NCBI RefSeq assembly: GCF_014279895.1
Contig: NZ_CP047954.1
Span: forward strand, 1,426,001 to 1,490,000
Length of the DNA: 64,000 bases
Direction: 5' to 3'
DNA from: Synechococcus sp. M16.1
Lineage (GTDB): Bacteria > Cyanobacteriota > Cyanobacteriia > PCC-6307 > Cyanobiaceae
Position 1 is the first letter of the stretch. The number at the start of each line of letters is the position of its first letter. Positions 6,397 through 8,729 of this stretch are shown here, piece by piece. The notes beneath the pieces were generated by a model that did no database searches, was not told the DNA's origin, and worked only from the letters and a program-made list of their open reading frames with translations. Both the position numbers and the translations under genes were made by a program.

Positions 6397-6477
6397 ATGA
6401 CCATTGCCCTGCTGATCGCGCTGGCGGGTTCCCTGGCGGCAATGGCCGTGATCGTGCGTCGTCTGGAACAGCGTTGA
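6397..6477 (+). CDS. Putative 26-residue membrane micropeptide coupled to the channel gene
   Basis: The ATG at 6397 opens a 26-codon frame, MTIALLIALAGSLAAMAVIV then RRLEQR: one hydrophobic helix with a basic tail. Its stop overlaps the ATG of the channel gene as TGATG, so ribosomes finishing it could restart on the channel. It could be a true single-helix partner or only a translational leader. No homologue is known to me. Confidence 0.42.
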   Translation: MTIALLIALAGSLAAMAVIVRRLEQR

Positions 6478-7550
6478 TGCGAGGGGTCCGGCGCTGGTCC
6501 GTCGTTCTCGCGCTGGCCTGCTTCGGCAACGCACTTCCCCTACAGGCCAATCAACTGAAGGTGGGGATCAGTGGATCGGCCCCCTTCGTAATCAAGAACG
6601 GCGATCAGCTCAGCGGCATCAGCCTCAACATCTGGCGCCGCGTCGCCGAAGACAACAACCTCAGCTACGAGCTGGTGGAGCAGCCATCCCCCAAAGCCGG
6701 GATTGAGGCGGTTGATGACGGTGAGATCGACGTGCTGGTGGGCCCGATCAGCATCACCTCACGCCGCCTGGCCATGCCGGGCATTGACTTCACCCAGCCC
6801 TACTACCTGGGCAAATCCGGGGTGTTGCTGCCGATGCGCCCGCCCTCGATCCTGAGCCGCGTGCAGGTGTTCTTCGGCTGGGCGGTGATCTCCTCGGTGC
6901 TGGTGCTGATCAGCGTTCTGCTGGTGGTGGGCAGCCTGATCTGGCTGGCGGAACGCAACCGCAACAGTGAGCAGTTTCCGCGGAACTGGCTACCGGGCAT
7001 CAGCAGCGGCATGTGGTTCGCCCTGGTGACCTTGACCACGGTGGGCTATGGCGACAAGGCGCCGATCACACGAACCGGCCGGGGCATCACCGGTGCCTGG
7101 ATGGTGATCTCCCTGATCGCGGTGTCGTCCCTCACCGCCAGCCTTGCCTCGGCATTCACCCTGTTCCTCTCCGGTGCCACCGAATCGGCCATCAGCGCTC
7201 CTGCACAACTGAACGGACGTCGGGTTGCTGTTGTGGAGGGCACCAGTGGCATGGAGCTGGCCCAACGCGGCGACATGCGGATCGTTAGCGCCACCAACCT
7301 CAGGAGCGCCGTTCAACTGTTGGTTGATCAGCAGGCCGATGCCTTGATCTTCGATCGACCAGCCATTCGCTACCACCTCAAAAACAATCCCGACCTCGCC
7401 CTGCGCCTCGCCCCCTTCACCCTTTCGGAAGAGACCTACGGCTTTGTGATCAAACCGAACAGCCCCCTGCGCACGCCCATGGACGTCTCCATCCTCAAAT
7501 TGCAACGGCAGGGGAAGGTTGCAGCCATTGCCAACCGGCTGCTGGATTGA
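6477..7550 (+). CDS. GluR0-like ligand-gated potassium channel
   Basis: The 357-residue product has the bacterial ionotropic glutamate receptor layout. A signal peptide (1-25) is followed by the first half of a periplasmic-binding-protein ligand domain (about 26-125, with ITSRR at 93-97 supplying the ligand Arg). Then come a membrane helix (about 131-157), a pore loop with the K+ filter TTVGYGD (187-193), a second helix (about 203-230) and the second ligand half (245-357, IFDRPA near 291). By analogy with Synechocystis GluR0, amino-acid binding would open a K+ pore. The ligand cannot be read from the sequence. The start is the ATG at 6477 that overlaps the micropeptide stop. Confidence 0.88.
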   Translation: MRGVRRWSVVLALACFGNALPLQANQLKVGISGSAPFVIKNGDQLSGISLNIWRRVAEDNNLSYELVEQPSPKAGIEAVDDGEIDVLVGPISITSRRLAMPGIDFTQPYYLGKSGVLLPMRPPSILSRVQVFFGWAVISSVLVLISVLLVVGSLIWLAERNRNSEQFPRNWLPGISSGMWFALVTLTTVGYGDKAPITRTGRGITGAWMVISLIAVSSLTASLASAFTLFLSGATESAISAPAQLNGRRVAVVEGTSGMELAQRGDMRIVSATNLRSAVQLLVDQQADALIFDRPAIRYHLKNNPDLALRLAPFTLSEETYGFVIKPNSPLRTPMDVSILKLQRQGKVAAIANRLLD

Positions 7551-7569: not shown

Positions 7570-7806
7570 TCAGCCCAATGGGCGATGACGACGCAGGGCC
7601 TCTTCCAACAGATAAGCGGCCAGATTGCCGCAACTGCGCCCTTCAGCGAGGGCATGACGCTTGAGGTCATCCATCACCCCGCGGGGCAGGGTGACGTTGA
7701 TGCGCTCGGAACCAGCCGCATCCGCCACCGCAGCCGTGCTGGGAGCCGCGGCCTGGCCTTCAATCCGCTGCTGCAGCTCCTGAACCAGATCCTGAAGGAG
7801 AGACAC
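7570..7806 (-). CDS. Ribbon-helix-helix (CopG/Arc-type) DNA-binding protein
   Basis: A 78-residue protein. An N-terminal helical part (LLQDLVQELQQRIEG) and a short Ala-rich linker precede a ribbon-helix-helix from about residue 35: ERINVTLPRGVMDDLKRHA, a helix break at GRSCGN, then LAAYLLEEALRR. These proteins dimerise through the strand and bind palindromic DNA. The start is the GTG at 7806, embedded in a CACGA-TT-TCGTG palindrome. No toxin-like gene adjoins it, so it is more likely a stand-alone autoregulator than an antitoxin. Confidence 0.75.
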   Translation of the reverse strand: MSLLQDLVQELQQRIEGQAAAPSTAAVADAAGSERINVTLPRGVMDDLKRHALAEGRSCGNLAAYLLEEALRRHRPLG

Positions 7807-7871
7807 GATTTCGTGAAAATATACTCACATCAAATAAACGATATCGTGCTAGACAAGATTGCGTAATCTTG
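7804..7871. promoter_or_regulatory. Three inverted repeats in a divergent promoter region (candidate operators)
   Basis: Three dyads occupy the gap between the ribbon-helix-helix gene and the DUF296-glutaredoxin gene. CACGA-TT-TCGTG lies at 7804-7815, ACGATATCGT at 7838-7847, and CAAGATT-gcgt-AATCTTG at 7854-7871. The first two share CGATwTCGTG and their centres are 33 bases apart, close to three helical turns, as expected for cooperative binding of a ribbon-helix-helix dimer. The segment is far more AT-rich than its surroundings. The dyads are seen; the binding protein is inferred. Confidence 0.5.
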
Positions 7872-7891: not shown

Positions 7892-8500
7892 ATGCAACCC
7901 CTGCCGCTGAAGCTTGCTCCCGGCAGTGATCTGCGCCTCAGCCTCGAAGAACTGGCCCAGCGGGACGGCATCAGCGGCTTTGTCCTTGGCGTGGTCGGCA
8001 ACCTGACCAAGGCGTCGTTCCAGTGCCCCGGCCAGGCAGAGCCCACCGTGCTGGAGGGCGATCTTGAGGTAATCACCCTCAATGGAACCTTTTCCCCCGA
8101 GGGCGTGCACCTGCACCTGAGCCTCTCGGATGGGGCCTGTCAGGTGTGGGGAGGCCACCTGGAGCCCGGCACGATCGTGCAGAAGGGCGTCGATCTGCTG
8201 ATTGGCGTGCTGGAGCAACGCGAAGGCCGCCCCGCGCGTCAAACTGCAGCAGCAACTCCAAGGATTGAGATCGCCGTGCTGCCGGGATGCCCCTGGTGCA
8301 GCCGCGCCCTGCGCATCCTGAGAACCCTGGATCTACCCCACAACGTCACCACCATCAACGACGACGCAGCCTTCCAGGCCGTGCAGCAGCGCAGTGGGAT
8401 GACCACCTTCCCCCAGGTGTTCATCGACGGATCAGTGATTGGTGGCTACGACGATCTCGCCGCCATGCAAGCCGCCGGTGAACTCGACGCCCTCCGCTGA
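7892..8500 (+). CDS. DUF296 (PPC) domain fused to glutaredoxin
   Basis: A 202-residue two-domain protein. Residues 1-115 form a DUF296/PPC domain: GVVGNLTKA (33-41) and the His cluster GVHLHLSLSD...GGHLEPG (71-93), whose His residues bind metal in family structures. After a short linker, residues 125-202 are a glutaredoxin with the redox motif CPWC (133-136), the cis-proline strand TFPQVFI (172-178) and the GGYDD glutathione-contact turn (184-188). Glutaredoxins reduce disulfides using glutathione. DUF296 proteins trimerise and are often linked to DNA binding, so a redox-linked role is inference. The gene diverges from the ribbon-helix-helix regulator. Confidence 0.85.
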   Translation: MQPLPLKLAPGSDLRLSLEELAQRDGISGFVLGVVGNLTKASFQCPGQAEPTVLEGDLEVITLNGTFSPEGVHLHLSLSDGACQVWGGHLEPGTIVQKGVDLLIGVLEQREGRPARQTAAATPRIEIAVLPGCPWCSRALRILRTLDLPHNVTTINDDAAFQAVQQRSGMTTFPQVFIDGSVIGGYDDLAAMQAAGELDALR

Positions 8501-8729
8501 TCAGCCGGAGCAGCCACCTCAGAAACAGCCTCCCTTCTGGTCGCTGAAACCCTGGTGGTGCCAGCCCTGGTCGATCATCTCCACGGGAATGCTGATGGTC
8601 GGCGGGTCCTGGGCGCTGCTGCACCGCCTCTGGATCAGCCTTCCCCTGAGCTTGGGCGTGCTGGCCTGGTGGCTTCTGTTTCTGGTGCTCGTGCCCGCCG
8701 CCTACCGGTCGGCCGCAGATCAGGCCTGA
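8478..8729 (+). CDS. Small two-helix membrane protein (DUF6737-like)
   Basis: The GTG at 8478 lies inside the 3' end of the glutaredoxin-fusion gene and gives 83 residues. A proline/glutamine-rich N-terminus contains WSLKPWWCQPWSI, followed by two hydrophobic segments (about 34-51 and 56-75). The KPWWCQPWSI-type start and hairpin resemble a small cyanobacterial membrane family, which I recall as DUF6737. Function unknown. Overlapping translation suggests co-expression with the upstream gene. Confidence 0.6.
   Translation: MNSTPSADQPEQPPQKQPPFWSLKPWWCQPWSIISTGMLMVGGSWALLHRLWISLPLSLGVLAWWLLFLVLVPAAYRSAADQA

Follow-up and report, generated by a model that had tools for sequence, protein, structure and literature searches.

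The gene described here lies in a stretch of 64,000 nt of contig NZ_CP047954.1 from Synechococcus sp. M16.1 (hereafter the window; all positions are window positions) and joins a PPC domain to a glutaredoxin in one protein of 202 amino acids. The open reading frame (7892–8500, plus strand) begins with ATG and runs uninterrupted through 202 codons to a stop. It encodes a PPC (PCC/DUF296) domain (residues 1–108; 7892–8215), a flexible linker (residues 109–122; 8216–8257) and a glutaredoxin domain (residues 123–202; 8258–8497), all on the plus strand. Searches of Pfam with hmmscan placed PF03479 (PCC, the current name of DUF296/PPC) at residues 3–108 (E 1.3e-20; 74.2 bits, gathering cut-off 25) and PF00462 (Glutaredoxin) at residues 125–183 (E 8.8e-14; 51.9 bits, gathering cut-off 22.9), each well above its threshold. 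A fusion of the two domains had been proposed in a sequence-only reading of the window. It is real and conserved: full-length homologues without an intervening stop occur across the Cyanobiaceae, and in M16.1 the fusion gene is the sole match to PF03479 in the whole 2.11-Mb genome. Two separate genes, or a frameshift artefact, are ruled out by the frame, which is unbroken in the window and in its relatives.

Divergent from the fusion gene lies a gene for a ribbon-helix-helix (RHH; CopG-like, RHH_5) protein of 78 amino acids (7570–7806, minus strand; PF07878, E 1.1e-17). The promoter shared by the two genes contains an inverted repeat CACGAT...ATCGTG (7804–7848; arms 7804–7814 and 7838–7848, 11 nt at 91%) and a second one (7854–7860 and 7865–7871, 7 nt at 100%). 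Both the divergent DNA-binding protein and the palindrome-rich promoter are therefore present as the sequence-only reading had described them. Among the 24 same-genus sequences in an upstream alignment made from 31 selected fusion loci, the CACGAT and ATCGTG arms are both exact in about 15, as judged by eye, and the shorter repeat (CAAGATT/AATCTTG) is kept in near relatives only. Since the left arm of the longer repeat runs into the start codon of the RHH gene, conservation of this repeat does not independently prove an operator. The next gene downstream of the fusion is a small DUF6737 gene (8439–8729, plus strand; PF20522, E 5.2e-20), whose start codon is uncertain. Beyond the RHH gene, a gene at 6474–7547 (plus strand) encodes family-3 solute-binding and ion-channel domains (PF00497, PF07885, PF00060) and presumably resembles prokaryotic glutamate-receptor channels.

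The neighbours were counted at 111 distinct fusion loci with at least 600 bases on each side (two of 113 were dropped as too short), using tblastn (E 1e-3) with the window's own neighbours as queries, so that diverged neighbours may escape these counts. A divergent RHH gene accompanies 45 of the 111 loci and a downstream DUF6737 gene 64; 37 loci have both and 39 neither, and the homologue of the 6474–7547 gene is upstream at 43. By these counts, neither the RHH nor the DUF6737 gene is a constant operon partner. Many of the loci with neither neighbour are titled Cyanobium or lake MAGs, and they include marine Synechococcus RCC307 and a Prochlorococcus. The fusion thus stands alone in many genomes, and the small regulatory module suggested for this locus is found locally and in some lineages, not as a general feature. 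The DUF6737 gene is present in all 12 Cyanobiaceae genomes searched, adjoining the fusion in four and lying elsewhere in seven; in the remaining one (G078), all PPC loci that were read are unfused. The DUF6737 domain also occurs in 7 of 13 searched genomes of other cyanobacterial families.

A full-length, unbroken homologue of the fusion is present in 29 of 34 same-genus genomes (the M16.1 genome included), and the five genomes without one are 57–87% complete. The fusion also occurs in both genomes sampled from two other Cyanobiaceae genera, and no full-length homologue is among the matches listed for 23 genomes of other families. In the larger sample, 209 of 251 Cyanobiaceae genomes match at E <= 1e-14; for the 168 good ones (completeness at least 90%, by rounded values, and contamination at most 5%) the number is 152. 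Twelve of the 209 match only weakly (best E 3.4e-15 to 4.6e-26). A search of these twelve with the PPC half found PPC in 11 and none in the other (G217), and every PPC locus read was unfused, with three further PPC matches in two genomes left out. Subtraction of the weak matches leaves the fusion in about 197 of the 251 genomes and 144 of the 168 good ones. Among the matches listed, Cyanobiaceae alignments down to E 2.7e-58 cover both domains, and so do weaker ones to 2.1e-38 (G140, residues 9–198). A sample of 386 cyanobacterial genomes contains 13 from outside the Cyanobiaceae that match at E <= 1e-13, none with an alignment past query residue 140; the two likeliest fusion candidates among them (L045 and L046) contain no glutaredoxin on reading. 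A contig scan yielded 498 confirmed relatives, the best 80 of which all span at least query residues 1–190 and group with picocyanobacterial sequences on the tree.

Two of these 80 lie on contigs titled Phycisphaerae (L095) and Bifidobacterium breve (L104), which bear picocyanobacterial fusion genes and are probably mis-binned or mislabelled MAG contigs. A phage or plasmid origin was considered and rejected: 28 phage and 157 plasmid records match, none covers at least 80% of the query, and the matches listed (20 and 15, respectively) hit one half or the other over at most 66% of it. Unfused PPC genes, one to four per genome, occur in some Cyanobiaceae genomes, part of which have no fusion (L154–L174); the fusion is therefore not indispensable everywhere. 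As a separate observation, two genomes of another cyanobacterial family have a PPC match in an open frame of 648 codons (L045, G038:C1:2724500-2729500; and G565:C56:43176-43589). In L045, PPC stands in frame behind what we take to be a GlmU-like protein; this may be another PPC fusion, unrelated to the first, or a pair of genes that share a frame and are not separated by a stop.

The fusion had been called unusual in the sequence-only reading, but it is neither rare nor new, being the common form in the Cyanobiaceae and in print since 2009. A bacteria-specific 'DUF296-GRX' architecture with a glutaredoxin of the CPYC class is listed by Alves et al. (2009; PMC2679010), who suggest DNA binding and gene regulation for it. 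The M16.1 protein has the same arrangement, DUF296 followed by a CPYC-class glutaredoxin in one bacterial protein, and probably belongs to the same family, as far as the available part of that account describes it.

AlphaFold predicts two well-folded halves for the whole protein (mean pLDDT 92.9, pTM 0.56) and low confidence in the linker (pLDDT under 50 at residues 112–118); high pLDDT together with this pTM means that the domains are sure and their relative placement is unsure. Across 114 distinct fusions, drawn from 136 loci, the linker has a median length of 14 amino acids (range 7–50) and is rich in Ala, Pro, Ser and Gln. The PPC half, modelled alone as a monomer, reached a pLDDT of 95.5 and a pTM of 0.86. 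In fold it agrees best with PPC proteins of known structure, such as 2nmu (Foldseek E 5.9e-11, TMq 0.90), 2hx0, 2p6y (VIA Z 19.8, rmsd 1.4 over 109 residues) and 2h6l; a 'metal-containing protein AF0104' is among these best matches. Acetolactate decarboxylases rank next in Foldseek (best 6j92, E 5.8e-4), with VIA Z of 6.7 to 9.5 and rmsd 4.3–4.5 over 104–105 residues (6j92: Z 9.5, rmsd 4.5 over 105), and PTD012 (1xcr) was matched with a Foldseek E of 0.10 and VIA Z of 4.6 (rmsd 4.1 over 103). The decarboxylase matches surfaced only with the PPC-alone model; the VIA list of the whole model was filled by glutaredoxin and PPC chains. Fold matches of the glutaredoxin half include GrxA of Synechocystis and Grx3 of E. 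coli (1fov: VIA Z 14.3, rmsd 1.3 over 80). Among the structural matches of the whole model is Prx5 (1nm3), a peroxiredoxin-glutaredoxin hybrid, in which the fused glutaredoxin serves its own protein. Other PPC proteins of prokaryotes have been described as trimers (PMC4209074), and by analogy the PPC core of the fusion is probably homotrimeric.

The fused PPC domain carries two cysteines, C45 (codon 8024–8026, plus strand) and C83 (codon 8138–8140, plus strand), that come with the fusion. Among 174 loci with a PPC match, both are present in all 145 fused loci, a count of loci and not of independent genes (several are the same gene fetched twice), and in none of the 29 unfused cyanobacterial ones; because the fused proteins share descent, 145 of 145 amounts to far fewer independent observations than it appears. 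The unfused loci have Gly at position 83 in 29 of 29 cases and Leu or Phe at position 45 in 25. Both cysteines are also missing from five solved unfused PPC proteins, those with an alignment listed among the seven found. In the AlphaFold model, C45 follows one strand (28–44) and C83 lies in a turn (80–84); the distance between them may be too great for an intramolecular disulfide. By the strand order, and given a simple antiparallel meander, both would lie at the same edge where the linker exits after strand 95–107. The two cysteines could be structural. We found no earlier report of this fusion-specific pair in the literature searched, and its presence makes the fusion more interesting.

The residues of a metal-type site, H73, H75 and H89, are intact in the window protein and, as residues, invariant in all 114 distinct fusions, as are E59, D80, E91, C45, C83 and C133. 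The three histidines (H-x-H...H) are also kept in 28 of the 29 unfused loci. The DUF296 protein LmiA from E. coli O157, which binds a promoter (EMSA, ChIP-qPCR and footprinting), has histidines at 85/87/101, a spacing identical to that in the fusion (PMC7667037); functional data on a bacterial PPC protein were met in the literature searched for LmiA alone. Other positions differ between fused and unfused proteins. Glu at position 91 occurs in only one of the 29 unfused loci, where Cys is found in 18 (GGHLC), and when 31 fused PPC domains are aligned with 16 unfused ones, the fused proteins have Asn or Asp instead of Ser at position 37, Pro instead of Ala at 46, and mostly Lys-Gly instead of Thr-Thr at 98–99. 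The C-terminal stretch around D-x-x-T-G-x-x-E-L, present in most unfused PPC proteins, is absent from the fusion.

The glutaredoxin half of the window protein shows the motifs of a class I dithiol glutaredoxin, C133-P-W-C136, P174 and G184-G185. We take Pro174 to be the cis-Pro position and the CPxC motif, Pro174 and the glycine pair to fill the active-site and glutathione-site roles. C133, Pro134, Pro174 and the glycine pair are the same in every one of the 114 distinct fusions. The second active-site position, 136, is Ser in 71 of them (active sites CPWS in 44, CPWC in 43, CPFS in 18 and CPYS in 9), and the CPWC site named in the sequence-only reading is thus a property of the window protein and not a family trait. 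On a tree built by a quick method with that column removed, the residue changed between Cys and Ser at least seven times, two changes being forced by the starred branches alone; this number is a lower limit, read from an uncertain tree that has 52 open inner branches out of 111 as well as several long ones and does not fix the direction of change. C136 is dispensable in this family, and glutathionylation chemistry is reported to require only the first glutaredoxin cysteine (PMC10295655). Three of the 114 fusions (L056, L058 and L059) have lost 12–13 residues around the second helix and keep the active Cys, Pro174 and the glycine pair, with Ser at 136 in all three; some members of the family may thus be losing the function of their glutaredoxin.

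In 112 of 113 comparisons with the window protein, the PPC half was closer than the glutaredoxin half. The fused glutaredoxin scores 60 bits against TIGR02181, the glutaredoxin 3 equivalog, below the NCBIfam cut-off of 90. The M16.1 genome has six matches to PF00462, of which three are strong (the fusion and two further glutaredoxins, one CPFC and one CGFS) and three are weak (22.1–24.6 bits, cut-off 22.9). Since separate CPFC and CGFS glutaredoxins are present, the fused one need not do general duty. A role as Fe-S carrier was considered and is disfavoured because Pro134 is invariant, and a Pro after the first cysteine is reported to abolish Fe-S ligation in other glutaredoxins (PMC10295655).

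We propose that C45 and C83 are kept in equilibrium with GSH/GSSG by the protein's own tethered glutaredoxin, which would give the PPC domain a built-in redox switch; we favour this reading tentatively, at somewhat less than an even chance. The fusion would then be a cytosolic, probably homotrimeric PPC protein, by analogy with its relatives, with a metal bound at the three-histidine site. Its predicted flexible linker would tether PPC permanently to a glutathione-dependent glutaredoxin working mainly in the monothiol mode, by glutathionylation and deglutathionylation. This glutaredoxin would equilibrate C45 and C83, its putative target, with the cellular glutathione pool, and oxidation would alter the output of PPC, be it DNA or protein binding, metal occupancy or catalysis. 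Three features together lead us to suggest that the glutaredoxin acts on its own PPC domain and through glutathione chemistry: the cysteines come with the fusion, the family is indifferent to C136, and PPC is strongly conserved. The greater closeness of the PPC half is likewise expected if PPC is the output and the glutaredoxin its servant. Against the switch weigh the shared descent of the fused sequences, the shortened glutaredoxin of three fusions, the genomes that lack the fusion and a possibly wide separation of C45 and C83. By analogy with LmiA the output could be DNA binding or, by analogy with the acetolactate decarboxylases, metal-site chemistry. The redox-responsive sensor of the sequence-only reading is plausible in the light of the fused-only cysteines and of promoter binding by LmiA (PMC7667037), and its mechanism would be the one given above. 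With the cysteine pair, what was a loosely defined 'domain of unknown function plus glutaredoxin' becomes a definite redox hypothesis, one that can be tested with a few point mutants, and the fusion could give a new handle on the roles of bacterial PPC domains.

Three rival explanations were weighed. A redox-responsive DNA-binding regulator, in which the PPC trimer binds DNA, perhaps the promoter shared with the RHH gene, and the glutaredoxin reports the glutathione state, corresponds to the sequence-only reading; Alves et al. (2009; PMC2679010) came near it in proposing gene regulation for DUF296-GRX. The inverted repeats in that promoter and the LmiA precedent, with its matching histidine spacing (PMC7667037), speak for it. 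Yet Pfam finds no DNA-binding domain in the fusion protein, and the RHH gene, divergent at fewer than half of the loci, is a simpler owner of the inverted repeat. The fused PPC domains are also acidic (pI 4.51–6.82, net charge -9 to 0, median -6 in 114 fusions), which is weak counter-evidence, as a net negative charge is also found in 14 of 16 unfused cyanobacterial PPC rows. On balance we consider such a regulator rather unlikely. A metal-dependent enzyme related to acetolactate decarboxylase and PTD012, for which the glutaredoxin would supply glutathione or keep the site reduced, appears somewhat less probable again. The Foldseek rank of the acetolactate decarboxylases just after the PPC structures, the weaker structural match to PTD012, which binds Zn via three His and was recently assigned as a beta-ketogulonate decarboxylase (PMC12435205), and the invariance of E59, D80 and E91 would fit an enzyme, but an rmsd above 4 A and 16% identity indicate a common fold at best. 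The window PPC has no match to the acetolactate decarboxylase family PF03306, found in one of 47 PPC rows at E 0.13, E91 and Lys-Gly 98–99 deviate from the unfused PPC pattern, no substrate is known, and none of the four tallied neighbours is constant or clearly metabolic.

If PPC were a mere trimeric scaffold presenting three glutaredoxins to outside clients, C45 and C83 would be structural. The trimers reported for prokaryotic PPC proteins (PMC4209074) and the variable linker with its low predicted confidence would suit this arrangement; against it, the PPC half is the one closer to the window protein in all but one comparison, and the invariant metal-site residues would be needless in a mere scaffold. 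We regard a scaffold as improbable, more so than the regulator or the enzyme.

The switch in cis can be set beside several known systems. DUF296-GRX (PMC2679010) has the same two domains in one bacterial protein, with a Pro-containing glutaredoxin that is not of the CGFS type; the portion of that account available to us is silent on the cysteine pair and on the frequent loss of the second active-site Cys. Alves et al. (2009) was the only relevant result of a literature search for DUF296 in cyanobacteria (the others concerned rice and Bacteroidetes, by title), and a search on glutaredoxin with DUF296/PPC and picocyanobacteria, which covered few subscription journals, returned no functional study of the fusion among the results listed. 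LmiA shares the histidine spacing of the fusion and has been shown to bind DNA, an activity that is hypothetical for the fusion; a glutaredoxin is not mentioned in the available part of the LmiA report (PMC7667037). Acetolactate decarboxylase and PTD012 may share a fold with the PPC half, but the PPC half is much smaller and has no sequence-level family match to them.

Closer parallels to the proposed switch are found among tethered glutaredoxins. In the Prx5 hybrid (1nm3) and in Grx-NrdB (PMC6187632), natural precedents for a fused glutaredoxin serving its own protein, the glutaredoxin is joined to its own redox client, as we propose for the fusion, but their client is a known enzyme and that of the fusion would be a PPC domain without an assigned activity. 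The engineered fusion roGFP2-Grx provides a further precedent (PMC10897161): there a two-cysteine partner is equilibrated by a tethered glutaredoxin through a monothiol mechanism, as suggested here. With slightly more reserve than for the switch itself, we consider it possible that the PPC fusion is a natural counterpart of Grx-roGFP2, a metal-binding PPC trimer with fusion-borne cysteines whose attached, essentially monothiol glutaredoxin would read the glutathione redox state directly. If true, such a glutathione-reading PPC-glutaredoxin switch would be carried by an entire family of highly abundant phototrophs. roGFP2-Grx is engineered (PMC10897161), whereas the fusion is natural and its PPC cysteines are a candidate redox pair.
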